Positions 1 to 38,599 of a stretch of DNA of 38,599 nt are shown piece after piece. The notes under the pieces are model-generated. The model was not told the origin of the DNA, ran no database searches, and was given only the letters and a program-made list of their open reading frames with translations. Position numbers and translations under genes: made by a program. This stretch comes from a virus, in IMG/VR virus record IMGVR_UViG_3300012008_000017, positions 1-38,599 of that record, one strand, 5' to 3'. Every line of letters begins with the position of its first letter. The stretch's first letter is position 1.

Positions 1-519
<519 letters not shown>

Positions 520-530
<11 letters not shown>

Positions 531-618
531 CCAGCATCTGCTTCTCACCGTTGGGGTGCTTGCGTTCGTCGCGATCGCGGTCGCGACGCACATCCTGTTG
601 AAGGACGGCCCGTCGTGA
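520..618 (+). CDS. tiny single-pass membrane protein
   Basis: A 32-residue frame starts at an ATG that overlaps the end of the repeat-protein gene and ends in a TGA overlapping the next GTG start. The sequence is MWPDQHLLL followed by a hydrophobic stretch (TVGVLAFVAIAVATHILL) and a short polar tail, so one membrane helix is predicted. The overlaps at both ends suggest translational coupling within the early operon. No family is recognised. Confidence 0.55.
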
Positions 619-800
619 GTGTCCTGGGGTGGCTCGGCGTCGCGATCCTCGCGTGGCTGGTCGCAGGCTTCGTACCTGTGCTCGCGTGGTGCGCGATCGT
701 CGAGATCTCAGCGCGCCGGCGGCGGCGTCGCAGCGCGCCGCTGATCGACCTGACCGGTGTGAAGCCGATCCCGTTCGACCGGGAGCGGATCGGCGCGTGA
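615..800 (+). CDS. small membrane protein with basic tail
   Basis: This is a 61-residue protein starting at GTG 615 inside the preceding stop context (GTGA). Residues 4-28 form one long hydrophobic segment (GWLGVAILAWLVAGFVPVLAW). A run of six arginines (EISARRRRRR) follows, consistent with the positive-inside rule, and then a polar C terminus. It is paired with the tiny membrane protein upstream. Two small membrane proteins in an early operon could act in superinfection exclusion or lysis timing, but this is only positional inference. The TGA overlaps the next GTG. Confidence 0.6.
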   Translation: MSVLGWLGVAILAWLVAGFVPVLAWCAIVEISARRRRRRSAPLIDLTGVKPIPFDRERIGA

Positions 801-1204
801 AGCGCGGCTCCCCGATGCGTCGGACGCCGTTCGCGCGCGCCACGAAGCCGCTGCGTGCGAAGCCGAAGCGCGCGAGCGAGGCTGTGCTCGAGGCTGCCGC
901 GGTGTTCAAGATCGTCGTGTGTTCGGAGCCGTGCATCGGCACCGAGATTTCGGGCCATGTCTGCGACGGTCCGCTGCAGGCGATGCACGTGGTGCCGAAG
1001 CAGACACTGAAACGTCGCGGCCTGCACGACCTGGTGTACGACGCGACCAATGGAATCGCGGGTTGCTACGAGATCCATCGGCGGCATGACCTCGCCGTAG
1101 AGAAGATTCCCCGGGCCCTGCTGCCGCAGCGTTGCGTCGAGTGGGCCCGCACGCACGGTGTGCTGGACGCGCTCGAGCGGCACTGGCCGGAGGCGACCAC
1201 GTGA
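797..1204 (+). CDS. HNH-type endonuclease-like protein
   Basis: This 135-residue protein starts at GTG 797, overlapping the previous stop. The N terminus is basic (KRGSPMRRTPFARATKPLRAK). The core reads C-x-E-P-C, then QAMHVVPK, then an Asn in DATNGIAGC, then EIHRRHD. This H...N...H spacing matches compact phage HNH or NinG-like nucleases, although the second zinc Cys pair is reduced to a single Cys. It probably cuts or resolves DNA in recombination or packaging. It sits two small genes upstream of integrase. The fold assignment rests on motif reading alone. Confidence 0.55.
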   Translation: MKRGSPMRRTPFARATKPLRAKPKRASEAVLEAAAVFKIVVCSEPCIGTEISGHVCDGPLQAMHVVPKQTLKRRGLHDLVYDATNGIAGCYEIHRRHDLAVEKIPRALLPQRCVEWARTHGVLDALERHWPEATT

Positions 1205-1332
1205 CCACCTTCACCGATCGTCGCAGCGGGGCGACTGCCGCGACGGGCGACGACACAGCCACCTCACGGCCTCTGTCGACGCACCAGGACGCCCCGCACA
1301 TTCTTCGTTCGTATGAACCGGAGCTCGGGTGA
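1201..1332 (+). CDS. hypothetical small protein
   Basis: A 43-residue frame starts at GTG 1201, overlapping the upstream TGA, and ends in a TGA overlapping the next GTG. It is polar and Thr/Ala/Asp-rich, with no recognised domain. The overlaps on both sides are the main evidence that it is translated. Confidence 0.45.
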   Translation: MTTFTDRRSGATAATGDDTATSRPLSTHQDAPHILRSYEPELG

Positions 1333-1577
1333 ACCTGGCCGATCTGTTGGTGCGGCTCGATCAGATCCGGGCGGATGAAGCGGCCGGGTTCGTCGTGCTC
1401 GTCATCGACGATGAGGACAACCGGCCGATCTCGGTTTACGGGCCGTGCCCAACACCGGAGGCTGCGCTCGTGCTCGCCGGTGATTTCGACCGTGACGAGC
1501 ACTCGGGCACGAATCCCGCCGACGGATCGCCCGGCTGGCGGCATGTAGTGTTGCCGCTCTTCGAGGCGCCGCAGTGA
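1329..1577 (+). CDS. hypothetical small acidic protein
   Basis: This 82-residue protein starts at GTG 1329 (GTGA overlap). It opens with an amphipathic LADLLVRLDQIRADEAAG segment and then a beta-like stretch, FVVLVIDDEDNRPISVYG. No family is recognised. It lies in the chain of overlapping early genes leading to integrase. Confidence 0.6.
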   Translation: MNLADLLVRLDQIRADEAAGFVVLVIDDEDNRPISVYGPCPTPEAALVLAGDFDRDEHSGTNPADGSPGWRHVVLPLFEAPQ

Positions 1578-1855
1578 CGCGGCTGGCGGACACGTTGGCG
1601 GCGGAGCTCGCGCAGCGCGCCTGGTTGGGCATCGACGCGCCGGCGGCTGAACCGACGGTCGCGGGGATCCGTGTCGCGCTTGCGCAGGGGATCCCGGGTG
1701 AGGTGTCGATGGAGGACGTCGGCGAGTGGGCACAGCCCGCGCTTGCGTCGCTGACCTATGCACCGAACGCCCTCGCCTTTGAAGGACGTCTGATCGGTGC
1801 GATCTCGGCCGCTTTGATCCTCGGCGCGAAGCTCCAGGAGACCCAGGGCACGTGA
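1574..1855 (+). CDS. hypothetical protein upstream of integrase
   Basis: This 93-residue protein starts at GTG 1574 and overlaps both neighbours by four bases. It is largely helical, with Ala-rich segments (ADTLAAELAQRAWLG and GRLIGAISAALILGAKLQ). No domain is recognised. Overlap of its stop with the integrase GTG suggests co-translation with the recombinase. An excisionase role is conceivable from position, but no winged-helix motif is visible. Confidence 0.55.
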   Translation: MTRLADTLAAELAQRAWLGIDAPAAEPTVAGIRVALAQGIPGEVSMEDVGEWAQPALASLTYAPNALAFEGRLIGAISAALILGAKLQETQGT

Positions 1856-2931
1856 CCGTGACCGTCGCTTCCGATTTGACTCTGGCGGCCGCGGCGCGGA
1901 TGCTGCGCGAGTCCGTGCGCGATCGCTCCTACAGGAGCACCCCGCTCGGTCTCGAGGTCGCGCGCTACTACCGGTGGAAGAAGAACGAGTGGGGCGCTGA
2001 AGAGAGCACGCTGCGTGACTACGAGGCGATCCTGCGCAATCTCTGCGTTCACTTCGCCGACCTCGAGCTCAAGGACTTCTCTCCACCCATCGGCATCGAG
2101 CGGCTCCGCGAGGCGATGGACTACTTCTGGGGCACAGCCGCTGCGCGCACCCGCAACAAGGTTCGGAGCGTCTGGATCGACTTCTTCGAGTGGGCCGTTC
2201 GTGAGGGACGTGGCATCCACGGCAACCCCGCGCGCGCACTCGCTAGGGCGAAGGCTCGTGACACCGAGAAGGAGCTGTTCGGCGAGAACTTCATCGACCG
2301 TGTCCTGACCGCCCAGACCTATGAGGCCGACTGGATCGGTGCGATTCTGATCTTGCGGTACGCGCTCAGGCGGTCCGGCGTGATGAACATCCAGCTGAAG
2401 CACTTCGACGTCGAGCGGCGCCTGCTGACTGTGCACACGAAGGGCGGACGGATTCACCCGTTGCCGATCCCCGACGACCTCTTCTGGCTCAAGCTGCTGT
2501 CGCTGCAGGCGCAAGGACTCGGCCCCGACTCGCCGCTGCTCTACCGCCAGGACACCCGCCGGATGAAGGTCGACGACGCGGACGCGACGGAGATCCTCCA
2601 GCTCGGCAACGGCCGATCCCAGGGATACGCGAACGTCACCCGCCGCCTCCACGATCGTAAGCCGACCGGGAAGCTCGTCCATCTTTGGTGGTACCGCCTC
2701 CTCGAGCGCGCCGACCTGATCCCGAAGGGCGTCACGGCAGGAATGAACATGCACCGCGGCCGTCACACCTCGATCACGGCGATGGTCAGAGGCACGCACA
2801 ACTTGAAGCTCGCTCAGATGCTCGCCGGCCACGCCGACATCCGCACGACCGCTGGGTACGCGAACCTCGACACCGCCGACCTCGAGGAAGCGATCACGCA
2901 GATCTACAACCTGGGCACGGACGAGGACTGA
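1852..2931 (+). CDS. int: tyrosine recombinase / phage integrase
   Basis: This 359-residue protein inserts the phage into the host chromosome through attP and a host attB. Residues about 10-110 form an N-terminal core-binding (SAM-like) domain; the rest is the catalytic domain. The catalytic set is visible: Arg173 in ALRRSG, Lys197 in HTKGGR, His301-x-x-Arg304 in MHRGRHTS, His327 in LAGHAD and nucleophile Tyr336 in TAGYANL. Length is normal for XerC/phage-type integrases without a long arm-binding extension. The start is GTG, overlapping the upstream stop. The attP-like tRNA segment lies about 550 bp downstream, a typical int-attP arrangement with two small genes between. Confidence 0.93.
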   Translation: MTVTVASDLTLAAAARMLRESVRDRSYRSTPLGLEVARYYRWKKNEWGAEESTLRDYEAILRNLCVHFADLELKDFSPPIGIERLREAMDYFWGTAAARTRNKVRSVWIDFFEWAVREGRGIHGNPARALARAKARDTEKELFGENFIDRVLTAQTYEADWIGAILILRYALRRSGVMNIQLKHFDVERRLLTVHTKGGRIHPLPIPDDLFWLKLLSLQAQGLGPDSPLLYRQDTRRMKVDDADATEILQLGNGRSQGYANVTRRLHDRKPTGKLVHLWWYRLLERADLIPKGVTAGMNMHRGRHTSITAMVRGTHNLKLAQMLAGHADIRTTAGYANLDTADLEEAITQIYNLGTDED

Positions 2932-2936
2932 CGGCG

Positions 2937-3281
2937 ATGGCGGACGTGAAAATCTCGATCGTCAGCACGCCCGCTGACCGGGCGCTCGTCGAGGTCGGTC
3001 GCGAGCTCGCGGCGGCTCGCCGGCGCTTCGGCGCGATGGCGTCTCCCCACGAAGGCCACTCGGTCATCCGTGAGGAGTTCGAGGAGCTGTGGGAGCACGT
3101 CCGCTCGAACACTGGCCGGTCGCGCGAGGCGCGCGCGGAGGCTATCCAGCTCGCCGCGATGGCCGTCCGCTACGTCGTCGACCTGTGCGGCCCTCCCGGT
3201 GCCGCCGGCGGCCTGAAGTGCGACACCCACGACCAGCCGGATTGCCCCACCTGTCTCAGATGGGCAGCGGAGAGCGCGTGA
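2937..3281 (+). CDS. MazG-like nucleotide pyrophosphohydrolase-type protein
   Basis: This 114-residue protein starts at ATG 2937, five bases after the integrase stop. The central helix EEFEELWEHVRSN and the later EAIQLAAMAVRYVVDL reproduce the ExxE...E/D pattern of all-alpha MazG/dUTPase-like NTP pyrophosphatases found in many actinophages. Such enzymes would hydrolyse noncanonical or excess NTPs. The C terminus carries a possible small metal site (KCDTHDQPDCPTC). The family call is by pattern only; a non-catalytic relative is possible. Confidence 0.55.
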   Translation: MADVKISIVSTPADRALVEVGRELAAARRRFGAMASPHEGHSVIREEFEELWEHVRSNTGRSREARAEAIQLAAMAVRYVVDLCGPPGAAGGLKCDTHDQPDCPTCLRWAAESA

Positions 3282-5958: not shown

Positions 5959-6896
5959 GCGAGTTCGCGATCCACTGCTGCGACTGCGTGACCGGGTTCG
6001 GCGAGCACCTGAAGCCGGAGTCGGTCGACCTGACCGTGTCGTCGATCCCATTCGGCTCCCTGTTCATGTACTCGGGGAAGAACGAGGACATCGGTAACAA
6101 CCAGGACGGCACGGATTTCGTGCAGTCGATGTTCGGCCTGCACCTCCGGTTCTGCGTTGAGCAGCTGCTCGCGGCTCACAAGCCGGGCACGAACGCGTGC
6201 ATCCACATTCAGCAGCTCGTCACCTATCGGGTGCAGCACGGCTACATGGGCCGCCGTGACTTCCGCGGCGCGGTGATCGACGTGTTCGAGGCTGCAGGCT
6301 GGGAGTGGAAGGGCGAGGTGTCGATCCCGAAGAACCCGCAGGTGATCGCGCGCCGGCAGAAGCTCCATTCGCTGTTGTTCAAGACGGCGAAGACGAACGC
6401 GCGCAACCTCGCCCCGGCCGTCAACGATTTCTTGTTGATCTTCCAGAAGCCCGGTGAGGCCGTCCCGGTGAAGGCGATGCGCCATGAGGGCAACCCTGAC
6501 GGATGGATCACCGGCTCGGATTGGATCCGGTGGGCGCGCGGCACGTGGGATGACATCCGCGAGACCGACGTCCTTGAAGGGTGGAAGACCGCACGTGAGG
6601 ACGACGACGAGAAGCACGTGTGCCCGCTGCAGCTTGAGGTGATCCGCCGCTGCGTGATGCTCTACAGCAACCCGGGCGAGATCGTCTGCGATCCGTTTAT
6701 GGGGATCGGCTCGACCGCCTACACCGCGTTGAACGGCCCAAGTCCGGCGACGGGCCTGTCCGTGGGCTCGCCGCGGCGGGTGGTCGGGTTCGAGTTGAAG
6801 GAGAGCTACCACGCCTCTGCCGTGAAGAACGCGCAACTCGCCCTCGACGGCGGCGCCGACGCTGACCAGCTGACGCTCGAAGAAGCCGCCGCGTGA
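5955..6896 (+). CDS. beta-class N4/N6 DNA methyltransferase
   Basis: This 313-residue AdoMet-dependent enzyme starts at GTG 5955, overlapping the helicase stop. The order catalytic motif first, AdoMet motif last defines the beta class. Motif IV lies near residue 25 in DLTVSSIPFG, where IPF replaces the common PPY. Motif I near residue 246 is CDPFMGIGST, followed by VGFELKESY. It should methylate adenine N6 or cytosine N4 at a short site. A stretch after motif I (NGPSPATGLSVGSPRR) is longer than usual and may be an insertion. No cognate restriction enzyme is adjacent, so protection of phage DNA is the likeliest role. The IPF variant may affect target choice. Confidence 0.88.
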   Translation: MSEFAIHCCDCVTGFGEHLKPESVDLTVSSIPFGSLFMYSGKNEDIGNNQDGTDFVQSMFGLHLRFCVEQLLAAHKPGTNACIHIQQLVTYRVQHGYMGRRDFRGAVIDVFEAAGWEWKGEVSIPKNPQVIARRQKLHSLLFKTAKTNARNLAPAVNDFLLIFQKPGEAVPVKAMRHEGNPDGWITGSDWIRWARGTWDDIRETDVLEGWKTAREDDDEKHVCPLQLEVIRRCVMLYSNPGEIVCDPFMGIGSTAYTALNGPSPATGLSVGSPRRVVGFELKESYHASAVKNAQLALDGGADADQLTLEEAAA

Positions 6897-8764
6897 ACGG
6901 GCTGACGGCGACCGATCAGTTCTGCGGTGCGGGAGGGTCGAGTCTCGGCGCCGCGATCGCGGGCGTCGAGCTGCGGCTCGGGCTGAACCATTCGAAGCTC
7001 GCTATCGAGACGCACAACACGAACTTCCCGGGTGCGGATCACGACTGCACTGACATCTCGGCGTGTGACCCGCGCCGCTATCAGTCGACGGACATCCTGA
7101 TCACGTCGCCCGAGTGCACGAACCACACGCTCGCGAAGGGCGCCCGGCGTAAGCCGGTCGTGGCGCCGTCGCTGCTCGATGAGGCGCCGCTGAGCGACGA
7201 TCTCGCGGAGCGGTCCCGGGCGACGATGTGGGACGTCGTCAGGTTCACTGAGTTCCACGCGTACAAGATCGTGATCGTCGAGAACGTCGTCGACGCGTTC
7301 TGGTGGGGGCCGAAGATGCCCGGCTTCAAGATGGGCAACGGCGAGCTCTTCAACGCGTGGCTGAACGCGATGGACGCGCTCGGCTACCGCCACCGCGTCG
7401 TGCTGCTCAACAGCATGTTTGCGCCGCCGACACCGCAGTCACGCGACCGCATGTACGTCGTGTTCTGGCGGAAGGAGCAGCGCGCCCCGGACTTGGACTT
7501 CGTGGTGCCGTCGTGGTGCCCGCGCTGCGAACAGGTCGTTCAGGCGGTACAGGCGTGGAAGCCGATGACAAGGAGCGGCGGCCGGCCGTGGGGCTCCTAC
7601 GGTTCGCAGTACGTCTACCAGTGCCCGACGTGTCAGACGCAGGCGTGGCCGGGTGCCTATCCGGCAGCGACCGCGATCGACTGGTCACTGGGAGGCCAGC
7701 GGATCGGCGACCGCAAGAAGGCGTTGGCGACGGCGACGCGCGAGCGGATCCGCCGCGGCCTCGAACGCTACGGCTTGCAAGGTCAGGCGTTCAGGTTGCT
7801 GCAGGACGGGATGCCGCGCCCGCTGACGATTCCCTTGGTCACGCAGACGGGCCGTCAGGATCTCGGTCTGTTGTTGCCGGTCGCGGGGAACCGTTCGGAG
7901 CGCACGTCGGGCTCCCGGGTGAAGACGACGGATCAGCCGATGGTGACGCGGACGACGCAGGCCGACCTTGCGCTCGTCGTGCCGCTTCGGAAGAACGGCA
8001 ACGCCGACGACGCGAACCAGCAGTCGCTACCGACGGTCTGTGCGAGCGGGAACCATCACGGCCTCGTCGTCGCGAAGGGCTCCGGCTCGACGCCGCGCTC
8101 AACGGATGAGGCGCTGCCGTGCGTGACGACGATCCCGCAGCTGCGGCTGCTCGTCCCCGCGGGCGGGCCGACCGGCCAGGGTCGTAACCCGAAGTCCGTC
8201 GATGAGCCAATCGGAACGGTGCTCGCGGAGAACCATCGCGCGCTCGTCGTCTCGAACATGGCGAACAACGCGCCCCGCGACGCAGCGACTGAGCCGTCGC
8301 ACGTCGTAACGACGGGCGGGAAGCTCGCTCTCGTTGAGCCTGCCCCTGGCGCGTTCGTGATGCGGAACAACACGGCGCGCGGTGACGCCGGCCAGATGTC
8401 AACGCCGGTTAAGGATCCGATCCGGACGCTGACCGGTGCCGGGCATCAGTCGCTGATCGTCCCGTACTACCGGACTGGCGAGGCTGTGCCGCCGGTCGAG
8501 CCGATCGGTGCGGTCACGACTCACGACCGTTTCGGCCTCGTTGATCTCGAGGAGGCGATCGACGACTGCACGTTCCGGATGCTGCAGCCGCACGAGATCG
8601 CCCGCGCGATGGTTATGCACGAGCACGTCGACGGATCGCCGTACGTGGTGCTCGGTAACAAGCGCGACCAGGTCGCTCAGTACGGCAACGCCGTCACGCC
8701 GCCCGTCATGCGGATGCTCGTGGAGCGGTGCGCCGAGTCGCTCGAGCCGGAAGGCGTCGCGTGA
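6893..8764 (+). CDS. C5-cytosine DNA methyltransferase with internal repeat region
   Basis: This 623-residue protein starts at GTG 6893. Motif I is FCGAGGSSLGA (residue 10 on). The catalytic loop is SPECTNH with Cys75, where Glu replaces the second Pro of the usual PPC. ENV follows at residues 130-132, then SRDRMYVVFW (motif VIII). A CPRC...CPTC zinc-ribbon-like insert lies near residues 209-246. Residues about 320-555 hold about seven degenerate units of 28-40 residues, each with an LVVP-like strand and a DEPxxTVTT-like element. Motifs IX-X end the protein (GNAVTPPV, near residue 598). The large repeat region sits where a target-recognition domain is expected. It is the second methyltransferase in an overlapping operon. 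Confidence 0.88.
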   Translation: MNGLTATDQFCGAGGSSLGAAIAGVELRLGLNHSKLAIETHNTNFPGADHDCTDISACDPRRYQSTDILITSPECTNHTLAKGARRKPVVAPSLLDEAPLSDDLAERSRATMWDVVRFTEFHAYKIVIVENVVDAFWWGPKMPGFKMGNGELFNAWLNAMDALGYRHRVVLLNSMFAPPTPQSRDRMYVVFWRKEQRAPDLDFVVPSWCPRCEQVVQAVQAWKPMTRSGGRPWGSYGSQYVYQCPTCQTQAWPGAYPAATAIDWSLGGQRIGDRKKALATATRERIRRGLERYGLQGQAFRLLQDGMPRPLTIPLVTQTGRQDLGLLLPVAGNRSERTSGSRVKTTDQPMVTRTTQADLALVVPLRKNGNADDANQQSLPTVCASGNHHGLVVAKGSGSTPRSTDEALPCVTTIPQLRLLVPAGGPTGQGRNPKSVDEPIGTVLAENHRALVVSNMANNAPRDAATEPSHVVTTGGKLALVEPAPGAFVMRNNTARGDAGQMSTPVKDPIRTLTGAGHQSLIVPYYRTGEAVPPVEPIGAVTTHDRFGLVDLEEAIDDCTFRMLQPHEIARAMVMHEHVDGSPYVVLGNKRDQVAQYGNAVTPPVMRMLVERCAESLEPEGVA

Positions 8765-10300: not shown

Positions 10301-11368
10301 ATGGGCCTGACGAAGGTGGAATGGGCTGACCTCAGCTTTAACCCGTGGTGGGGCTGCGAGAAGGTTTCTCCGGGGTGCGCGCACTGCTATGCGGACACGT
10401 TGTCGAAGCGGTACGCGAACGGCGTGCAGCTGTGGGGTGACGGTCACGAGTTCAGGTTCTTCGGCGACAAGCATTGGGCCGAGCCGCTGAAGTGGGCGCG
10501 ACTGCTGCCGGCGAAGCTGGGCCGCCGTCCCAGGGTGTTCTGCGCGTCGATGGCCGACGTCTTCGAGGAGCGCGACGAGCTCGTTGAGCCACGCGCGCGA
10601 CTCTTCGACCTGATCCGTCTCACGCCGCAGCTCGATTGGCTGATCTTGACGAAGCGTCCCGAGGCTGCGCGCGACGAGCTCGCGCGCCTCTACGACTACC
10701 TCGAGTACGACATCCTCGAGCCGAGCGACCCGCTCGGCTATCTGCCGAACGTGTGGATGGGCGTGTCGATCGAGAACTCCCGGTTCACGTGTCGGGCGGA
10801 TGTGCTCCGGGAGATCCCGGCGGCGGTCCGCTTCATCAGCGCCGAGCCGCTGCTCGGCAGCCTCTTCCCAAAGATCGAGAGCAGGCCTCGCCCGGCGGTA
10901 CATCCCGGGTCACCGTCAACGGCTTCGCTCGAGCCCGGGGCTGCGATGCCCCGGGCCGCTCTCGACCTCACCGCCATCGATTGGGTGATCGCGGGCGGCG
11001 AGTCGGGCCGGCATGCGCGGCCGTCGCATCCGGATTGGTTCCGCGAACTCCGCGACGCCTGCTTCACCATGACCGACGTCGCGTTCAGCTCTGACCACGA
11101 GCCGGTCGTTTCGCGGCCGGCGTTTTTCTTCAAGCAATGGGGCGAGTGGGCGCCCGGGTCAACGTTCGATGGATCTGAGCGCGATCGCGTGGTCACCTAC
11201 GACGGCCGTGATCGCACGTGGCCGCAGTGGATTGAGGACGGCTATCGCGCTGGCGCCGGTCACGCGCGACCTGTTGTCATGCACCGCGCGGGAAAGCGCA
11301 ACGCTGGACGTGAGCTTGACGGTCGCACGTGGGATGAGTTCCCGCAGAGCGCGGCGGTGCCTGCGTGA
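10301..11368 (+). CDS. phage Gp37/Gp68 family (DUF5131) three-cysteine protein
   Basis: This 355-residue protein starts at ATG 10301 behind a GGGAGG ribosome-binding site. It opens KVEWADLSFNPWWGC and carries the family's cysteine motif at Cys19, Cys26 and Cys29 (C-x6-C-x2-C), which suggests an Fe-S or metal centre. Later blocks FCASMADVFEE, LDWLILTKRPE, VWMGVSIEN, FISAEPLLGSL and DWVIAGGESG are typical, as is FFKQWGEW near the end. The biochemical role of the family is not established. Between EPLLGSL and DLTAIDW is an extra segment of roughly 30 residues encoded by GC-rich DNA with an inverted repeat (10933-10956). The partner TcmP, often adjacent in other genomes, is not seen. Confidence 0.87.
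   Translation: MGLTKVEWADLSFNPWWGCEKVSPGCAHCYADTLSKRYANGVQLWGDGHEFRFFGDKHWAEPLKWARLLPAKLGRRPRVFCASMADVFEERDELVEPRARLFDLIRLTPQLDWLILTKRPEAARDELARLYDYLEYDILEPSDPLGYLPNVWMGVSIENSRFTCRADVLREIPAAVRFISAEPLLGSLFPKIESRPRPAVHPGSPSTASLEPGAAMPRAALDLTAIDWVIAGGESGRHARPSHPDWFRELRDACFTMTDVAFSSDHEPVVSRPAFFFKQWGEWAPGSTFDGSERDRVVTYDGRDRTWPQWIEDGYRAGAGHARPVVMHRAGKRNAGRELDGRTWDEFPQSAAVPA
10933..10956 (+). repeat. intragenic inverted repeat in DUF5131 gene
   Basis: Perfect 8-base arms GCCCGGGG (10933-10940) and CCCCGGGC (10949-10956) flank an 8-base loop. They lie within a stretch that appears to be an in-frame insertion between two conserved family blocks. It could be a small palindromic element or just a GC-rich linker. 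Confidence 0.5.
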
Positions 11369-12288
11369 GCGTGCATGTGTCGTCGTGGGCGTGGAAGCAG
11401 GAGATCGGCGACGATGGCGCCAAGCTGGTGTTGTTGAAGCTCGCTGATTCGGCGAACGACGACGGTGTGGCGTGGCCGAAGCGGGAGACGTTGCAGTCGG
11501 AGTGCGAGGCCGGCCATGAGGACACGGTGAAGCGCAGGTTGCGGAAGCTGCGCGACCTGGGGCTGATCATCAGCGTGCCGTGGAACGACGCGAACGGCCG
11601 TCAGACGTCGTCGATGTATGTGCTTCCGCATCGCGGGATCCCGTCGGCTGAGCGGCTCTGGCAGATCGTTGAGAACGCGAATCGGAAGGGCTCGGTTGGC
11701 ATCGACCGGGCCGAGTTGGTGGCCACGGAGGCCGTCGGTTCGTTCCTTCGAGGGGGTGCATCTGTGCACCCCCTCAACTTTGGCTCAGGGGGTGCATCCA
11801 CGCACCCCTCAGGGGGTGCACCGGCGCACCCCTCTATAGAGGAACCATCATTTGAACCGTCAGAAGATCTCTTGCCGGACGAGTCCGGCGGGAGGTTCGA
11901 GATTGAGCTTGCGCTGAGCGCGACGCTCGGTGTGCAGCTGTCCGGCATGACCGACCGGGAGCGCGGCCAGTGGGCGATCGCGGTCGGCGAGCTCGTGAAG
12001 GTCGGAGCGACCGCCGTCGAGGTCGCTGAGCGTTGCGCGGCGTACCGGTCGGTGTGGCCGTCGGCGAAGTTGACGCCGATGGCGCTCGTCCGTCATTGGT
12101 CGATGCTCGGCGCCGAGGTCGACGTGAAGACGTCGGGCTTCGCCGCATGGCTCGCCGCCGACCACTTCGACCGCCAGACGACGCACGAGATGATCGACGA
12201 CACGCCAGGGCTCGACGACGCCGAGCGCGCGCGCCGTCACCGGCTGATCGATGAGCGCTTCGACGCGCGCCGGGAGGACGCGGCCTGA
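11365..12288 (+). CDS. HTH replication-initiator-like protein
   Basis: This 307-residue protein starts at GTG 11365, overlapping the previous stop. Residues 1-75 form the winged-helix domain common to phage replisome organisers (VSSWAWKQEI, LLKLADSANDDGVAWP, TVKRRLRKLRDLGLI), followed by a wing and MYVLP. A low-complexity linker encoded by the iteron array (11750-11832) joins it to a helical C-terminal domain (LGVQLSGMTDRERGQW, WLAADHFDRQT). It probably binds the origin and recruits the host replisome. No phage polymerase or helicase loader is recognisable nearby. Origin-in-initiator-gene organisation is known from lambda O. Confidence 0.75.
   Translation: MSVHVSSWAWKQEIGDDGAKLVLLKLADSANDDGVAWPKRETLQSECEAGHEDTVKRRLRKLRDLGLIISVPWNDANGRQTSSMYVLPHRGIPSAERLWQIVENANRKGSVGIDRAELVATEAVGSFLRGGASVHPLNFGSGGASTHPSGGAPAHPSIEEPSFEPSEDLLPDESGGRFEIELALSATLGVQLSGMTDRERGQWAIAVGELVKVGATAVEVAERCAAYRSVWPSAKLTPMALVRHWSMLGAEVDVKTSGFAAWLAADHFDRQTTHEMIDDTPGLDDAERARRHRLIDERFDARREDAA
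11750..11875 (+). other. candidate replication origin: three palindromic iterons plus AT-richer tract
   Basis: Three dyads lie inside the initiator gene. The first is perfect, with arms GAGGGGGTGCA (11750-11760) and TGCACCCCCTC (11765-11775). The second and third have arms GGGGTGCA and CGCACCCC at 11789-11808 and 11813-11832, each with one mismatched pair. All have a 4-base spacer (TCTG, TCCA, CCGG). Centres are 36 and 24 bp apart. A CTCTATAGAG palindrome and an AT-richer stretch (to about 11875) follow, as expected of an unwinding region. Function as an origin is inferred. Confidence 0.6.
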
Positions 12289-32532: not shown

Positions 32533-32976
32533 ATGGACACGATCCTCTCGACCGACGAGATCACTGGGGCGACTCTCGTCGAACATACATTCCCTGCCGA
32601 CGTCCCCGTGTGCGTCGTTGTCAACTGTTCCCCGCCGCCAGGTTCGGACATTGCACTGGCGGCGATCGAGGAAGGCATCGTGCTCGCCCGCAGCGGCGAT
32701 GCGCCAGGCGGCGCCTCGAAGATCGCCGAAGGGCAGAAACTGCTCGAGCAGCTGGCCAACGACGGCCCGGCCCAGGTGACGGTACGTCCACTCAGCGTCG
32801 ACGAGCTCGCGCAGTGTGTCGCCGATGAGGAAACCTCGGCCGCCGCCGTCGCCGCCGCCGAAAAGGAGGCGTCAGCCCGTGACGCGCTTGTCTTGAAGTT
32901 GAGCGGCGGCACCGCATCCGACTCCGAGGTTCAGTCGGCGATCGCGCAGATCCTCGGCCCGCCTTCAACCGCCTAA
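32533..32976 (+). CDS. hypothetical protein between tail and lysis genes
   Basis: This 147-residue protein starts at ATG 32533 behind AGAAAGGA. It has mixed strand and helix (GATLVEHTFPADVPVCVVVNC) followed by helical, Ala/Glu-rich sequence (SAAAVAAAEKEASARDALVL). No family recognised. It may be a small tail accessory or a regulator of lysis. Confidence 0.55.
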   Translation: MDTILSTDEITGATLVEHTFPADVPVCVVVNCSPPPGSDIALAAIEEGIVLARSGDAPGGASKIAEGQKLLEQLANDGPAQVTVRPLSVDELAQCVADEETSAAAVAAAEKEASARDALVLKLSGGTASDSEVQSAIAQILGPPSTA

Positions 32977-32992
32977 CCAGGAAGGAAATCAG

Positions 32993-33904
32993 ATGAACGC
33001 AACGCCATCCGGCAGGCGCAAGCCTGCCCTCATAGCGCTCGCCGCGTTGGCTGTGGTGCTCGCTCCCTCCGGAGCACACGCCGCGGTTCGCCATGACACC
33101 TTCCCGCTTCATGCGGGCTCGAACGGGCAACGGGTGCAGGATCTGCAGTGGCTCTTGGGCGGTCATCGCCCGTACGTGTTCACGCAGGTCAAGCCGACGT
33201 TCAAGTTCAAGCCGAACGGCGCCTACGGCGCGCGCACGAAGAGCGCCGTGATCGCCATGAAGTACCGGGTCGGCTACCCGAAGCTCGGCCAGTGCGGCTC
33301 GAAAACGACATTGCTGCGCGACACAACGACCCGGTACTTCTTCGCGATCCTCGAGGGGAAGGCGCTTCGGCCGCGCTGCTGGGTGGCGCTCGCCGCGCAG
33401 CGCGTCAAAGGCCTCGTCCGTGTCGGCGCGACAGACACAGCTCTCAAGATCCAGGCGCTCGAGGTGCTGCAACTCGGCGTTCAGGAGGTGCCGGACGGCT
33501 CGAACCGCGGCCCGCGCATCTCCTTCACCGCGAACGGCTTCGGCCCCTACCAGGGCTCAACCGGGGCGTACGGCGCCGCCTGGTGTGCGTCGTTCGCGCA
33601 GTGGGCGTTGAAGAGCGTCACCGGGCACACGATGCCCGCACCGCTCCCCGCGTATGTGCCGTCGATCGCCGCATGGGCCCAGGCGCACAACTACCTCGCG
33701 GCGAAGCCGAAGGTCGGCGCGTTCGTCATCTTCCTCTCGCCCGATCTGCAGCTCGTCAACGCGTTCCACATCGGCTACATCGTTCGCGTCACCGCGTCAG
33801 GCGTGCAGACCGTCGAGGGCAACTACGCCGACGGCGTCCATGAGGTTTGGCGGCCGTTCGACGCGAACCCGATGGTCTACGTCGACGTCCCGGGCGTAGC
33901 GTAG
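32993..33904 (+). CDS. exported endolysin: PG-binding plus CHAP domain
   Basis: This 303-residue protein starts at ATG 32993 behind AGGAAGG. A classical signal peptide covers residues 1-30 (KPALIALAALAVVLAPSGAHA). A peptidoglycan-binding domain follows (GSNGQRVQDLQWLLGG ... GAYGARTKSAVIAMKYRVG). The C-terminal CHAP-type amidase/endopeptidase carries Cys198 (AWCASFAQWAL), His259 (FHIGYIVR) and Asn277 (VEGNYADG). Having its own signal peptide means secretion through Sec, with the holin needed mainly to depolarise the membrane. Confidence 0.9.
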   Translation: MNATPSGRRKPALIALAALAVVLAPSGAHAAVRHDTFPLHAGSNGQRVQDLQWLLGGHRPYVFTQVKPTFKFKPNGAYGARTKSAVIAMKYRVGYPKLGQCGSKTTLLRDTTTRYFFAILEGKALRPRCWVALAAQRVKGLVRVGATDTALKIQALEVLQLGVQEVPDGSNRGPRISFTANGFGPYQGSTGAYGAAWCASFAQWALKSVTGHTMPAPLPAYVPSIAAWAQAHNYLAAKPKVGAFVIFLSPDLQLVNAFHIGYIVRVTASGVQTVEGNYADGVHEVWRPFDANPMVYVDVPGVA

Positions 33905-33906
33905 GC

Positions 33907-34350
33907 ATGTTCGCTGGGATCTCGTTCTTCTCGAGTGTGGTTGTTGCATCGTCGTCGTTGCTGCAGACGCAGTCGACGAACTTCGTCTTGCTCGGAGCGA
34001 TCCTCGTCGGCGGCATCTTCGCGTGGCGGCAGAAGCGCGGAGACTTCTATAAGGCTGTCGCCGAAGAGAAGACGGACGAGAACGAGAAGCTGAAGCAGGA
34101 ACGCGACCAGCTGCGCGCGATGACCGACATCACCCCGATCGTCCAGGCGCTCCAAGACGTGACGGCTGCGCTCGCGCGCAGCGTCGCGATGAGCGACCAG
34201 GTGCTCACGAAGGTCGTCGAGATGAACGGCAGCCTCCGCACACACGGCGAAGCGATGAAGGCGCTCGCCGACCATCTGATCCTCGAGGAATCCGCTCGCG
34301 GTCTTTTGGCCGCGGCCGCAGAACCACACCAACCAAGGAGGAAAACATGA
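33907..34350 (+). CDS. membrane-anchored coiled-coil protein of lysis cassette
   Basis: This is a 147-residue protein starting at ATG 33907, two bases after the endolysin stop. One or two hydrophobic segments lie in residues 1-40 (FFSSVVVASSSLL, NFVLLGAILVGGIFAW), then a long charged coiled coil (AVAEEKTDENEKLKQERDQL) and further helices. It could be a second holin-type or spanin-like factor; the tail is unlike lipoprotein spanins. Overlaps the holin-like gene. Confidence 0.65.
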   Translation: MFAGISFFSSVVVASSSLLQTQSTNFVLLGAILVGGIFAWRQKRGDFYKAVAEEKTDENEKLKQERDQLRAMTDITPIVQALQDVTAALARSVAMSDQVLTKVVEMNGSLRTHGEAMKALADHLILEESARGLLAAAAEPHQPRRKT

Positions 34351-34550
34351 ACGGAGCACTCGCACTTCACCCGAAGGTGACCGCTTCGCTGCTCGGCGGC
34401 TGGGTCACCACCCTGATCCTGTACAGCCTCTCGCAGTGGGGACACGTCGACCCGCCGACCGTCGTCGGTGCCGCGCTCGTCGGTGTCGTCACGTTCGGCT
34501 GCGGATACCTCGCACCCGTCGCGGCCGCCGACACACAGCCGGCGAAGTAA
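34347..34550 (+). CDS. putative holin (two membrane helices)
   Basis: This 67-residue protein starts at ATG 34347, overlapping the previous stop. It has two hydrophobic helices (VTASLLGGWVTTLILYSLS and PTVVGAALVGVVTFGCGYLAP) with a short turn between and a short polar end. Size, topology and position right after endolysin fit a class II holin. Holins share little sequence, so the call rests on topology and context. Confidence 0.7.
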   Translation: MNGALALHPKVTASLLGGWVTTLILYSLSQWGHVDPPTVVGAALVGVVTFGCGYLAPVAAADTQPAK

Positions 34551-34562
34551 ACGGGGCACCTG

Positions 34563-34757
34563 ATGGTTGCGGCGGCGAAGCAACGAGACCTCGAGGCTGA
34601 CGAGGTACACCGCCGCCGCAACCAAGAAGCACGCGACGCCGGACTGTCCGAACTCGAAGCGAACGTGTTCGCGATCAACGACACCGACATCGGGCAGCTA
34701 CGCAAACTCGTCGCCGACGGCTGCCCACCCGACCTCATCGCACTCATCGTCGTCTAA
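34563..34757 (+). CDS. hypothetical small charged protein
   Basis: This 64-residue protein starts at ATG 34563. It is charged and helical (LEADEVHRRRNQEARDAGLSE) with a C terminus ending in PPDLIALIVV. It is the last + strand late gene and converges with the minus-strand moron only four bases away. No family recognised and no terminator hairpin between them. Confidence 0.55.
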   Translation: MVAAAKQRDLEADEVHRRRNQEARDAGLSELEANVFAINDTDIGQLRKLVADGCPPDLIALIVV

Positions 34758-34761
34758 CAAC

Positions 34762-35157
34762 TCAGCCCTTGACGATGCGGTGGGAGTTGATTCCAAATCC
34801 GTGACCCGACGCGGCGACGCAAGCAACCCCTCCGTACGTCGGGTCACAAGTGAACGGCCCTCCATGCCACCTCCCCGACAACTGCTGGAAGACAGCAGGA
34901 TTCTTCGGAGCACTCGGAGCGGGAGCTGTCAACGGTGCCCCCTGTCGGCTCAGGAGGACGGTCGTCCAACGCCCTCCGATCCGAGCGGTGCAGCCAACGA
35001 ACGCATCAGCCTTGGCCAAGTTGTAGGCGATGCAGTACACGGAGCTGCTCTTGAACGGCGTGACACCGGCCGAATGAGCCGTTCCATGTGCGGTCGCTAC
35101 ACCAGCGGAGGCGAGCGCCCCGGTCGTGACTCCGACGAGCAACAGTCGCCTCAGCAC
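34762..35157 (-). CDS. secreted Cys-rich moron protein (DUF6636-like)
   Basis: This 131-residue protein starts at GTG 35157 on the minus strand, preceded by a GGAAAGGGG ribosome-binding motif. A signal peptide covers the first about 22 residues (LRRLLLVGVTTGALASAGVATA). The mature part has four Cys in two pairs (VYCIAY...GCTARI and FTCDPTYGGVACVA) and ends SGHGFGINSHRIV. The GVxC...GHGF ending recalls a family of secreted actinobacterial proteins (DUF6636) of unknown function. It lies downstream of, and in the same orientation as, the repressor, so it is probably expressed in the lysogen as a conversion gene. Confidence 0.7.
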   Translation of the reverse strand: MLRRLLLVGVTTGALASAGVATAHGTAHSAGVTPFKSSSVYCIAYNLAKADAFVGCTARIGGRWTTVLLSRQGAPLTAPAPSAPKNPAVFQQLSGRWHGGPFTCDPTYGGVACVAASGHGFGINSHRIVKG

Positions 35158-35158
35158 C

Positions 35159-35236
35159 CTAATCCCCTTTCCCTACTAGGTCGTCGCTCGCGACGATGAC
35201 TGCGAGAACGATGAAGCCGAAGATCAATCCACACAC
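35159..35236 (-). CDS. possible 25-residue membrane peptide
   Basis: On the minus strand a GTG-initiated frame encodes a hydrophobic helix (LIFGFIVLAVIVA) followed by an acidic end (SDDLVGKGD). A GGGAGAGG motif lies about 11 bases upstream, and its stop is one base from the moron's GTG. Coupling to the secreted gene is plausible, but the frame is very short. Confidence 0.35.
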   Translation of the reverse strand: MCGLIFGFIVLAVIVASDDLVGKGD

Positions 35237-35434
35237 ACGTCAGCGGGCCTCTCCCTGGAAAGAGTGAACTAGAGGAATCGTAGTTGATGCTTGAGTCATC
35301 GTCTAGTTAGGCTCGGCAGGCGGGCGTACGACTGAGGGAGGCAGGCTTGAGCGGCGAGCATCATCCGAGACACCCGGTAGGTTCCCCGGTCCGGTCACGC
35401 GAGGCCGGCGGCAAAGTGAGCGAATCACTGGACA
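35237..35434. other. non-coding gap between repressor and moron
   Basis: About 200 bases hold no credible gene on either strand. The stretch around 35255-35310 is clearly AT-richer than the surroundings and could contain an independent promoter for the moron. No unambiguous -35/-10 pair was identified. Confidence 0.4.
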
Positions 35435-35842
35435 TCAGTTCGCGCCTCCCTGATCGCCCGTCTCTTGACGATCTGATCGCTGCGCTGCGGGCACCTGGTC
35501 TGCTTCTAGAGCAGCCAGCCGTGCAATCACTTCTTCGGCGAAGGTCAGCTGTCGTTCGTGAAGACGTTCGACCTCTGCTTCGAGTTCTGCCAGGCGGCTT
35601 GAACGTCGTCCCGCCCGAGGTGTCACCTCAGCTAGCTCAGGGGCGCTGAGCACAGCTGCCAGGTGCTCTGCCCTTTGTGGCATCGGCTCTTGAGTCTTGA
35701 GGTAGCGATAAACCGAGCTCCGCTCGTCCTCGAGCGTGTTTCCGGTTCGGTCAGCTAGCAGCTTTGCGACTTGCCGGACGCTCTTTCCTGACCGGGCGAT
35801 CGCGTCCTTCAGCTTCGCTGCGTACGGGGATTCCGTCGCCAC
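35435..35842 (-). CDS. HTH repressor (CI-like) with coiled-coil tail
   Basis: This is a 135-residue protein if read from GTG 35842. An ATG at 35926 would add 28 residues that have no counterpart in the divergent paralogue, and it would lie beside that gene's promoter. Residues 5-70 form an HTH of the Cro/CI type (YAAKLKDAIARSGKSVRQVA, then SSVYRYLKTQEPM). The C terminus is a coiled coil (LAELEAEVERLHERQLTFAEE) for oligomerisation. The GTG lies in an operator and close to a candidate -10, suggesting a leaderless mRNA and autoregulation. It is the only regulator facing the lytic operon, so the lysogenic repressor role is likely. Confidence 0.75.
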   Translation of the reverse strand: MATESPYAAKLKDAIARSGKSVRQVAKLLADRTGNTLEDERSSVYRYLKTQEPMPQRAEHLAAVLSAPELAEVTPRAGRRSSRLAELEAEVERLHERQLTFAEEVIARLAALEADQVPAAQRSDRQETGDQGGAN

Positions 35843-35849
35843 TGTGGCG
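35837..35849. promoter_or_regulatory. operator O1
   Basis: CGCCAC-T-GTGGCG, a perfect 6-bp dyad with one central base, overlaps the proposed GTG start of the minus-strand repressor. It is identical over 13 bases to O2. Confidence 0.7.
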
Positions 35850-35851
35850 CG

Positions 35852-35881
35852 AGTCTTGTGCGACAGGGCGTCGTTCCGCAA
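35852..35881 (-). promoter_or_regulatory. candidate repressor promoter
   Basis: On the minus strand TTGCGG (35881-35876) and AAGACT (35857-35852) are separated by 18 bases. Transcription would start about 1-4 bases before GTG 35842, a leaderless transcript. The match to consensus is modest. Confidence 0.35.
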
Positions 35882-35897
35882 GGTGGTTTCGGTAGTT

Positions 35898-35910
35898 CGC
35901 CACTGTGGCG
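35898..35910. promoter_or_regulatory. operator O2
   Basis: CGCCAC-T-GTGGCG, identical to O1, ends two bases before the TTGACA box of the lytic promoter. Binding here would touch the -35 region. Confidence 0.7.
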
Positions 35911-35911
35911 C

Positions 35912-35940
35912 TTGACATTTCGCCACATGTGGTTAATCAT
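35912..35940 (+). promoter_or_regulatory. early lytic promoter
   Basis: A consensus TTGACA (35912-35917) is followed after 16 bases by TAATCA (35934-35939), or after 17 by AATCAT. The spacer contains operator O3. The predicted start is within a few bases of ATG 35950, and there is no Shine-Dalgarno sequence, so the transcript would be leaderless or nearly so. Confidence 0.7.
35921..35933. promoter_or_regulatory. operator O3 between -35 and -10
   Basis: CGCCACATGTGGT contains the perfect palindrome CCACATGTGG and keeps the CGCCAC half-site with a two-base centre. It lies exactly between the promoter boxes. Its centre is about 23 bp from O2. Confidence 0.6.
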
Positions 35941-35943
35941 GCT

Positions 35944-35955
35944 CACCACATGGCG
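35944..35955. promoter_or_regulatory. operator-like O4 over the start codon
   Basis: CACCAC-ATGGCG keeps one half-site and a degenerate second one. It covers the predicted transcription start and the ATG of the + strand gene, about 22 bp from O3. The weakest of the four. Confidence 0.45.
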
Positions 35956-36315
35956 ATGGCAACTCCTCGCAGCTTCCGTTCCTGGTTGAGCCATCAGCTC
36001 GAGGAGCAAGGAATGCCTCGCCGCGAGCTCGCGCGCCGCCTCGCGACGAAGCATCCGGAGGGCGTCACCCCTCAGACGATCGAGACGTACCGGCGTGCCA
36101 TTTATCGGTACCTCGACGTCACCGAGCCGATGCTCCCGAATCTGCAGACGCGCTCCGCGTTCGCGGCTGCGCTCGGTGTCTCACCGTCGGAAGTCCCCTC
36201 CTCTGACGATGAGGAGGGCGAGCCGGATTTGTCCGCGACCTTGCAGTCACTCGCGCGGGAACAGGCGGAGCTGAGTCGGAAGCTCACCAGGGCACTTCGG
36301 TCGGTGCAGTCGTGA
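35950..36315 (+). CDS. HTH regulator (Cro-like), paralogue of the repressor
   Basis: This 121-residue protein is read from ATG 35950; ATG 35956 is an alternative. The HTH region (SWLSHQLEEQGMPRRELARRL, then AIYRYLDVTEPM) aligns with the minus-strand repressor, sharing YRYL-x3-EPM. The C terminus is again a short coiled coil (LSATLQSLAREQAELSRKL). It is the first gene of the early operon and probably binds the same operators to shut off the repressor. Its mRNA seems leaderless. Overlaps the next GTG. Confidence 0.75.
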   Translation: MAMATPRSFRSWLSHQLEEQGMPRRELARRLATKHPEGVTPQTIETYRRAIYRYLDVTEPMLPNLQTRSAFAAALGVSPSEVPSSDDEEGEPDLSATLQSLAREQAELSRKLTRALRSVQS

Positions 36316-36902
36316 GGACGCTGTTGGAGCGTGTGATCGATTTCGTGGTGGCGAACCCGGGACGGACGTTGCCGGAGATCGCGCGGGGTGTTCGTGCGCG
36401 TGATGCGGCGATCCGGGACATTCTGTCGTCTGAGCGGTTCTCGGCGTCTGTGCGCGACGAGAACGAGTACCGGTCGCCGCAGGTGTATCGGTTGGCTGCT
36501 GGGGGCGCGGACGGCCTGGGCTTGCGGCAGAGGCGCACTCAGTGCGACCTGATCGCGGCGGTGCTCGCCGATGGTGGGTGGCATACGACCGCCCAGATTC
36601 ATCACCGCTGCGGCTTCTCCCGGTTGAACTCGCGGATCTCGGAGTTGCGGAAGCGGCGGAGCATGGTGATCGAGTGCCGTCACGTTGACGGTGAACACAC
36701 CGGCCCGAACGCGTTCGAGTACCGGCTGGTCTCTGTGCCTTCGGAGGCAGCCGACACGTCGACTGGCAGCGCTGCGGCGCGCAGCGGTGAGTCGGCTGCC
36801 TCGGACGGCCCGAATGATCAGCTGCACTCCCCCGTTGCTGCTCCCCTCCTGACGGAAGCCGGGCCGTCCGATGAACAGCTTGATCTTGGAGCGGCGGCGT
36901 GA
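36312..36902 (+). CDS. double winged-helix DNA-binding protein
   Basis: This 196-residue protein starts at GTG 36312, overlapping the upstream stop. Two HTH units are visible: LLERVIDFVVANPGRTLPEIA and LIAAVLADGGWHTTAQIHHRC, followed by FSRLNSRISELRKRR and a wing (FEYRLVSV). The last 60 residues are Ser/Ala/Asp-rich and probably disordered. A second early regulator or replication accessory; target unknown. Confidence 0.65.
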   Translation: MRTLLERVIDFVVANPGRTLPEIARGVRARDAAIRDILSSERFSASVRDENEYRSPQVYRLAAGGADGLGLRQRRTQCDLIAAVLADGGWHTTAQIHHRCGFSRLNSRISELRKRRSMVIECRHVDGEHTGPNAFEYRLVSVPSEAADTSTGSAAARSGESAASDGPNDQLHSPVAAPLLTEAGPSDEQLDLGAAA

Positions 36903-37108
36903 GCCGGTTCTTCAAGGTGCGCCTCGTTACGCAGGCGGGTGAGCGTATCGAGGTCGGTGTGGCGGCGAATGACGGCATGACCGCGATGGATCGCGCCTGG
37001 ATCGATTACCGGGAGGCGCACCCGGACGTTCGTCTCGCCGGCGGCGCGACTCTCTGCACGATCACCAAGGCTGAGTACGACGAGATCCTGATCGGAGCGG
37101 CAGCGTGA
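36899..37108 (+). CDS. hypothetical small protein
   Basis: This 69-residue protein starts at GTG 36899. It reads RFFKVRLVTQAGERIEVGV then AAMDRAWIDYREAHPDV-type helix and TLCTITKAEYDEILIG, an alpha/beta pattern. No family recognised. Overlaps both neighbours. Confidence 0.55.
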   Translation: MSRFFKVRLVTQAGERIEVGVAANDGMTAMDRAWIDYREAHPDVRLAGGATLCTITKAEYDEILIGAAA

Positions 37109-37326
37109 GCGTGCTCGACGTGCGTCATGCGCGGCACCGTTCGGGGATCCAGATCGCGGATCTTCTGCTGCTCGAGTTGCCGGAGGCGCAGCCGATCATC
37201 AAGCGGATCGGCGAGGCCGTCCCTGCGGAGTATCCGTTGCGGATGGCGCACGTTCTGCGTGTCGCGACGATCGCCGTCACGGCGAAGCTGAAGCCTTCCA
37301 ACCCGCACGCGGGGGCGACGCTCTAG
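37105..37326 (+). CDS. hypothetical small protein
   Basis: This 73-residue protein starts at GTG 37105. It is helical with Leu-rich segments (IQIADLLLLELPEAQPIIKRI, MAHVLRVATIAVTAKLK). No domain recognised. The stop directly abuts the next ATG. Confidence 0.55.
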   Translation: MSVLDVRHARHRSGIQIADLLLLELPEAQPIIKRIGEAVPAEYPLRMAHVLRVATIAVTAKLKPSNPHAGATL

Positions 37327-37542
37327 ATGAGCATGCTCACATGCCCTCGGTGCGACGATCTGTGTCCGCCGTCCGCGTCGATGTGCGATTGCGGCGAGCC
37401 GCTGCTGCCGATCGTGTCGACGGCGCATCCGACGCCGCTCGCTCCGATCCCTTCCTGCTCGTGCGGCAACGAGAGCGGCGATCCGAACCAGGGGTTCTGC
37501 ACGGTGTGTGTGCTCGCGTCGTATGAGCCGGTGGCGCGCTGA
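37327..37542 (+). CDS. small double zinc-ribbon protein
   Basis: This 71-residue protein starts at ATG 37327. Cysteines occur as CPRC...C and C-x-C in the first half, then CSC and CTVC in the second, compatible with one or two zinc sites. The linker is Pro-rich (STAHPTPLAPIP). Likely a structural or nucleic-acid-binding protein. Its TGA overlaps the next ATG. Confidence 0.6.
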   Translation: MSMLTCPRCDDLCPPSASMCDCGEPLLPIVSTAHPTPLAPIPSCSCGNESGDPNQGFCTVCVLASYEPVAR

Positions 37543-37721
37543 TGGAAGAGATCCGCGCACGGCTGATCGAGCTTGCCGAAGAGGTTGCCGCGCAGCTGAA
37601 CGTGATCGAGGACGACGACGAGCGCGAGGAGTTGCAGGTCGACTATGAGCGCCGCCTGAACGAGCAGATGTTCGCGGGCTCTGAGCGTCGCGACGCCCGG
37701 CGTGAGGCGGGTACGTGGTGA
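37542..37721 (+). CDS. hypothetical acidic coiled-coil protein
   Basis: A 59-residue frame starts at an ATG sharing a base with the upstream TGA. It is highly charged and helical (EEIRARLIELAEEVAAQLNVI, then DDDEREELQVDYERRLNEQ). Coupled at both ends (TGATG, GTGA). No family recognised. Confidence 0.55.
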   Translation: MEEIRARLIELAEEVAAQLNVIEDDDEREELQVDYERRLNEQMFAGSERRDARREAGTW

Positions 37722-37966
37722 ACGGCCGCGTCGTGCATCCGGCCTTGTCGGTTCCGCTGCGGAAGCGCCAGTCGGTGATCGACGAGCTTGGCCGTGACGC
37801 CGTGATCGTCGGCTTCCGCAAGCAGCGGTCTTGGATCTTCGGCCGGCCAAGCTCGGTCTCCTGGGTGGTCGTCCAGGCGGCTGACGGCATCAGGTCGTAC
37901 CGGGCTCCGTCGGAGCTTCGTGTCGTCGAAAAAACAGCTATCGAGATGGAGGGACAGTCAGCATGA
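37718..37966 (+). CDS. hypothetical small protein
   Basis: This 82-residue protein is read from GTG 37718, overlapping the previous stop; GTG 37715 is possible. It reads LRKRQSVIDELGRDAVIVGF, RSWIFGRPSSVSWVVVQA, then a helical end. No family recognised. Overlaps the repeat-protein start (ATGA). Confidence 0.55.
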   Translation: MNGRVVHPALSVPLRKRQSVIDELGRDAVIVGFRKQRSWIFGRPSSVSWVVVQAADGIRSYRAPSELRVVEKTAIEMEGQSA

Positions 37967-38599
37967 GCAGCATCACGTTGGCGCATGGCGCCCACGAACC
38001 ACCGACCGATGGAACGCCTCCGACTGAGGTCTTGGCGTGCGCGGCCGAGCTCGTCTCCTATGTGGTGCGTGAGCCGTTCTCGGATCACCCGAAGTGCGTG
38101 TCGCCGGTCGTCGGCCAGTTCCTCAGGTCTTTGAACGATCGCCTCGACGACGAGCGCCGGCAGAAGCTGCTGCCGTTCCTGGTGGAGTGCGACGACGACG
38201 GCCAACCGATCTTGGACGATGACGGCTGGATGAAGGCGGGCCCGGTCGTCGGGACGAACACCGGCCGTGAGGACGACATGGCGCGCCGCTGGATGTGCGT
38301 CGATTGGCTCGTCCACGAGTACGCGCCGGCGATGTTCCGCTTCGCGGGATGGACGACCGAGGCAGAGCAGTTCGAGCAGATGGTCGCGATCGTCGACCGG
38401 GAGACGTGGGAGTCGGTCAGGCCGACAGTCCGTTCGGTGCGCGATCGTGCTTGGGCAACTCGCGCTGCGGCTGTAGAGCGCCTACGTGGCGAGTTGCAGC
38501 GGCGTGCCGTTGCCGGTGCCGTTGCCGGTGCCGATGCCGTTGCCGGTGCCGGTGCCGTTGCCGATGCCGATGCCGATGCCGTTGCCGTTGCCGCTGCCG
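37963..38599 (+). CDS. 5' part of Ala-Val/Gly/Asp repeat protein (continues at 1-530)
   Basis: The gene starts at ATG 37963, overlapping the upstream stop. A unique N-terminal domain of about 181 residues comes first. It contains VSYVVREPFSDHPKCVSPVV, FLRSLNDRLDDERRQKLLP, ARRWMCVDWLVHEYAPAMF and a helical end. The dipeptide array then begins at 38506 and runs to the window end, continuing in frame at base 1. The N-terminal domain resembles an actinophage protein family whose members carry Ala-rich repeats; function unknown. Assembled across the junction the product would be near 389 residues, with about 142 in the array. Confidence 0.75.
   Translation, partial: MSSITLAHGAHEPPTDGTPPTEVLACAAELVSYVVREPFSDHPKCVSPVVGQFLRSLNDRLDDERRQKLLPFLVECDDDGQPILDDDGWMKAGPVVGTNTGREDDMARRWMCVDWLVHEYAPAMFRFAGWTTEAEQFEQMVAIVDRETWESVRPTVRSVRDRAWATRAAAVERLRGELQRRAVAGAVAGADAVAGAGAVADADADAVAVAAA
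38506..38599 (+). repeat. GCCGNT hexanucleotide microsatellite (right part)
   Basis: Fifteen hexamers precede the window end, with variable bases T, G, A and once C (GCT, Ala). The unit and the phase are identical to bases 1-335, so both parts belong to one array. Confidence 0.95.

Follow-up and report, generated by a model that had tools for sequence, protein, structure and literature searches.

The window analysed here, the whole 38,599-nucleotide stretch of IMG/VR record IMGVR_UViG_3300012008_000017, has ends that comparison with a relative confirms, at the level of sequence, to be the two halves of one predicted gene, cut by assembly inside an in-frame repeat. The gene encodes a member of a widespread, undescribed phage protein family with a fast-changing alanine-rich middle, as relatives carry other unit lengths at the same place. 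By the same comparisons the window is a circularly closed (circular or permuted) tailed-phage map opened in the array; the tailed-phage assignment follows from its gene content, which comprises an integrase, a helicase, methyltransferases and a replication-initiation-like protein together with terminase, portal, head protease, major head protein, tail proteins and endolysin. A methyltransferase-like gene (6893–8764) has short stretches near 6910–7492 that match Gordonia phage DNA methylase genes with 75–86% identity, hinting at an actinobacterial host.

The gene is transcribed rightwards, and its ATG overlaps the stop codon of the preceding open reading frame (37715–37966). It starts with an N-terminal domain of 181 residues containing an EPFSDHP motif (37963–38505) and enters a GCCGNT array coding for Ala-(Val/Gly/Asp/Ala), of which a first assembled part of 15 units plus GCCG (38506–38599) lies at the right end of the window. 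The second part occupies positions 1–335 at the left end (5 bases plus 55 units, rightwards in frame 3), and is followed by a C-terminal helical domain ending in a TGA stop (336–530). Both array parts were read from the sequence and with TRF. The last 94 and first 335 bases are thus one GCCGNT array, as originally noted. It has 70 whole units; their variation is confined to N (T 38, G 18, A 13, C 1), and the other five bases are invariant in 70 of 70.

Joining the window ends gives a single open frame (37963–38599 continued at 1–530) of 388 amino acids and a TGA stop, close to the about 389 residues of the original prediction. That frame stands, but not as proof of the join; the array lacks stop codons in all three forward and all three reverse frames, so an open frame across the join is weak evidence, and the join rests on homology and synteny. 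Coding of the array on the minus strand or in another frame was rejected: all frames are open, yet the conserved flanks are connected by the Ala-X frame alone. A bare join shifts the hexamer phase by 3 bases, GCCG meeting CCGTTG to read GCC GCC GTT; the sole exact overlap of the ends is the 3 bases CCG, and collapsing it restores the phase, with the reading frame kept either way. Duplicated contig ends were also rejected, as the two array parts overlap no more than expected by chance, their best placement matching in 60% of states, no better than shuffled arrays. Since neither assembled part duplicates the other, the true array must span at least about 70 units, and probably more. The order of states in the window array looks random, with no signal of block duplication.

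The window's two flanks were searched separately for relatives. The N-terminal flank identified IMGVR_UViG_3300049456_000062 (locus L002; 62% identity), in which one intact gene comprises a homologous N-terminal flank, a 9-nt Ala-Ala-X array and a C-terminal end that is 63% identical to the flank at the window's first end. Two unique domains joined by an alanine-dipeptide region had been proposed, and this intact gene bears that out. The two sequences are colinear on both sides of the junction (window 32903–38598, then 3–3278), including the rightwards upstream neighbour (36312–36902; 44% identity) and the rightwards downstream neighbour (629–1204), which adjoins the gene in L002 (59%) and also in L011; both support the junction. 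The rest of the L002 contig keeps the window order, and its ends fall between window positions 3197 and 3837. The two contigs were therefore opened at different points of one map, which upholds the prediction of a circular or permuted genome. It is extremely improbable that the two end arrays belong to different loci and that the joined protein is an artefact; the phase offset of 3 at the bare join is what speaks for such an artefact, and against it are the intact L002 gene with colinear neighbours on either side, the relative opened elsewhere on the same circular map, and about ten other contigs in which the same gene is cut alike. Neither flanking host DNA nor separate loci were found at the window ends.

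The same cut recurs in other viral contigs. A profile built from five members found 45 viral loci, and the contigs of 14 of these end in or at the array; none of the 45 ends 500–1500 bases beyond the N-terminal domain. For eight of the 14 (G002, G003, G006, G007, G009, G010, G012 and G015) the opposite contig end carries the C-terminal half, and MT835534.1 may be another such contig. In all, about ten other viral contigs are cut in this gene with the N- and C-terminal halves at opposite ends. Exact end overlaps are 46 bases in G007 and 57 bases in G009. In G010 (IMGVR_UViG_3300036859_000026; loci L038/L068) the ends overlap by 133 bases, 126 of them exact, and diverge where the array starts, which suggests that two array versions were present in the sample. 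A scan for six GCCGNT units gave 13 loci with the N-terminal domain among the matches listed, including those of two contigs, of 70,719 and 53,177 bp, that have the array at both ends. A small contig of 8,903 bp (IMGVR_UViG_3300036800_000167; loci L035/L067) carries the gene and has an exact end overlap of 57 bases; its gene shares 97% identity with the copy in a 49.9-kb contig of that sample. This small contig may be a deletion derivative, a small circle or the product of misassembly.

Family members combine an EPFSDHP-motif N-terminal domain with an Ala-rich array and C-terminal helices, and the window protein has a homologous N-terminal domain, an in-frame Ala-rich array and a C-terminal helical segment. 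Relatives match the N-terminal domain with 62–31% identity and share C, E, EPFSDHP, ND and R residues. Against Pfam and NCBIfam the family gave no match at the curated cut-offs. PHROG 13065 and PHROG 3416, phage protein families without an assigned function, match 18 and 16 of 31 family members, respectively, at E ≤ 0.01, sharing the first ~60 residues of the N-terminal domain with the family; these matches are limited to the N-terminal motif. The window protein itself reaches only PHROG 13065, with an E-value of 0.036 that falls short of significance. PADLOC profiles of known anti-phage defence proteins give only stray single-member matches (E 0.03–0.05), the gene neighbourhood is not conserved across the family, and within the set of papers searched none on the repeat motif or protein family was found. 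Among sampled genomes of the Paraburkholderia family, 9 of 349 hold copies with arrays; in the sampled order of Microbacterium the profile matches 62 of 347 genomes, nearly all through a short domain form. Actinobacterial chromosomal proteins (L086–L113) have in common with the family about 70 residues of the N-terminal domain (GxH..G.C..E....AGE.WSDHP.C), but continue into a non-repeated region, with no Ala array in those read.

AlphaFold2 predicts the flanking domains with confidence and as mainly helical; the mean pLDDT is 94.7 for the window N-terminal domain, and the C-terminal helices of the L002 model have pLDDT values of 85–94. The array itself is modelled largely as helix, though with low confidence (pLDDT 31–60), and the Ala-Gly/Val/Asp dipeptides may not fold as the four-residue arrays do. 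Neither the full L002 protein nor the window N-terminal domain had a Foldseek match in the PDB at E ≤ 0.001; BFVD gave none at E ≤ 0.001 (the best rows being unnamed or uncharacterised phage proteins), and VIA structure comparison gave only middling helical matches with Z under 6. A collagen-like repeat was rejected, as only L002 of nine full-length relatives reached PF01391, with 19.4 bits against a cut-off of 27.2.

Array units are 6 nt in the window, L010, L011, L014, L051 and others, 9 nt in L002, L029 and L043, 12 nt in most relatives, and codon-sized in L023 and L032; all of these periods are multiples of three and therefore preserve the reading frame. A maximum-likelihood tree groups the window and L002 (9 nt) as a pair, within a fully supported clade that also contains L010 and L011 (6 nt), and the supported branches force at least three changes per period class. 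The recommended homologue search and comparison of middle regions recovered an intact homologue whose middle differs in unit length, and the predicted variability of array length is seen directly in relatives of the window virus. The family itself, the change of unit length and the excess of nonsynonymous variation go beyond the original prediction. Across 10,348 aligned bases L043 and L044 show no mismatch, and a 60-nt array block, a duplication, is all that separates them. Burkholderiaceae copies have N-terminal domain DNA that is 84–91% identical, with arrays of 23 to 87 residues that differ in order. In IMGVR_UViG_3300049432_000202 (L141) a 51-unit GCCGNT array contains a 17-unit block repeat that 0 of 500 shuffles reach; such a repeat is absent from the window array. 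The most divergent alphabet in the family is that of IMGVR_UViG_3300040980_000029 (L051), in which Ala/Asp alternates with Leu/Arg/Cys.

Variation within 35 arrays was scored as deviations, codons that depart from the majority codon at a given unit position. There are 599 nonsynonymous and 17 synonymous deviations, with about 184 synonymous expected; units copy each other and deviations are therefore not independent, so the count of distinct variants is safer, and here 5 of 140 are synonymous compared with 41.6 expected. Within any one array the third positions hardly ever vary, but they differ between arrays (GNC, GNT, GNA or GNG), and variation between an acidic residue and Ala recurs on each of these synonymous backgrounds. 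At the place occupied by W, G or R, Arg is encoded by AGG only in 16 arrays and by CGG only in 11, with none of the 27 mixed; L068, for example, has three AGG and no CGG. This pattern is consistent with a small number of mutational origins in each array that were propagated as units copied one another, together with selection for the amino acid. It does not agree with random mutagenesis of N. A diversity-generating retroelement was rejected: the window genome has no RVT_1 match at E ≤ 1, and there is no adenine signature, as several arrays have variable sites that lack A (e.g. C/T in L012, and C/G/T in L025 and L049).

The explanation that we favour, and hold to be probable, is a closed phage map bearing a length-variable Ala array whose side chains are under selection to remain mixed, the array forming a putative helical spacer, scaffold or interaction surface of an accessory phage protein, a label that reflects its position in a few genomes only. 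The window would be the map, complete or nearly so, of an integrase-bearing tailed phage, and the assembler would have opened it within a short tandem repeat that is the coding middle of a single gene between its N-terminal domain and C-terminal helices. With units of whole codons (2, 3 or 4 amino acids, depending on the phage), gain and loss by replication slippage or unequal recombination would leave the frame intact, and unit turnover would keep synonymous positions uniform within each array. Selection on the protein would maintain variation among a few side chains at one or two fixed places per unit (A versus D/E, G or V; W/G/R). The array would most likely serve as a helical Ala scaffold, setting the spacing of the two folded parts of the protein and decorating them, its length and side-chain pattern being free to change rapidly. 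The comparisons establish the gene structure, the circular map, the family, the change in length and the nonsynonymous excess, whereas slippage, selection and the helical spacer or interaction surface are proposed.

The main rivals are a neutral linker and a recognition code. If the array were microsatellite filler in a tolerant linker, shaped by slippage alone and with irrelevant side chains, the wide range of lengths among close relatives and the mostly random unit order would be expected; neutral mutation predicts, however, about 30% synonymous deviations, where 17 of 616 are seen, and the same residues recur on different synonymous backgrounds, Arg being reached through AGG or CGG according to the array. 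The nonsynonymous excess already disfavours such filler, and we regard it as unlikely. That excess also accords with a rewritable code in which side-chain order sets the partner bound, a host factor or a defence protein, as do a constant scaffold with one or two residues varying in each unit and the differing order among close relatives. Most arrays nevertheless have only 3–6 unit types in largely random order, and no known repeat-recognition family was matched nor a partner found, leaving a code of this kind an outside chance, of roughly one in five.

Origin iterons lie within the lambda O gene, between two domains, and the position of the array between two domains of a gene resembles that arrangement. 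A role at the DNA level, as intragenic iterons or as a packaging or recombination site, is nonetheless very unlikely: even sister phages differ in the length and sequence of their units, only nonsynonymous bases vary, and a separate replication-initiation-like gene is present at 11365–12288.

Intragenic coding repeats occur in other systems. The E. coli tolA repeat is described as an in-frame coding tract in one gene with a copy number that varies among strains (PMC3477136); as far as that description extends, tolA-type repeats have in common with the window family an in-frame tract of variable copy number within one gene, but the family differs in that its homologues vary in the length of the unit itself, nearly all variable bases are nonsynonymous, and the protein is a different one. 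Palindromic amphipathic repeat coding sequences of Mollicutes and others are likewise described as intragenic and spread across diverse genomes (PMC2996958); the likeness is one of description only, both being intragenic coding repeats in diverse genomes, and implies no relation.

These findings explain why databases list a set of complete phage genomes as open contigs interrupted in a single gene, and provide a simple rule by which such contigs can be recognised and closed. They describe a coding repeat with a unit length that shifts from homologue to homologue as the amino-acid alphabet converges, which offers a natural test of how slippage and selection jointly build proteins, and the Burkholderiaceae prophage copies open the effect of array length and pattern to direct testing. 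A more ambitious reading, which we put forward tentatively and as a minority possibility, is that the array is a dedicated fast-evolving module, an Ala scaffold of 1–4 codon units in which turnover would rewrite the length, the period and the pattern of D/E, G, V, W and R, and selection would keep them diverse. If so, the phage could quickly retune its binding of a host factor or escape a host sensor.
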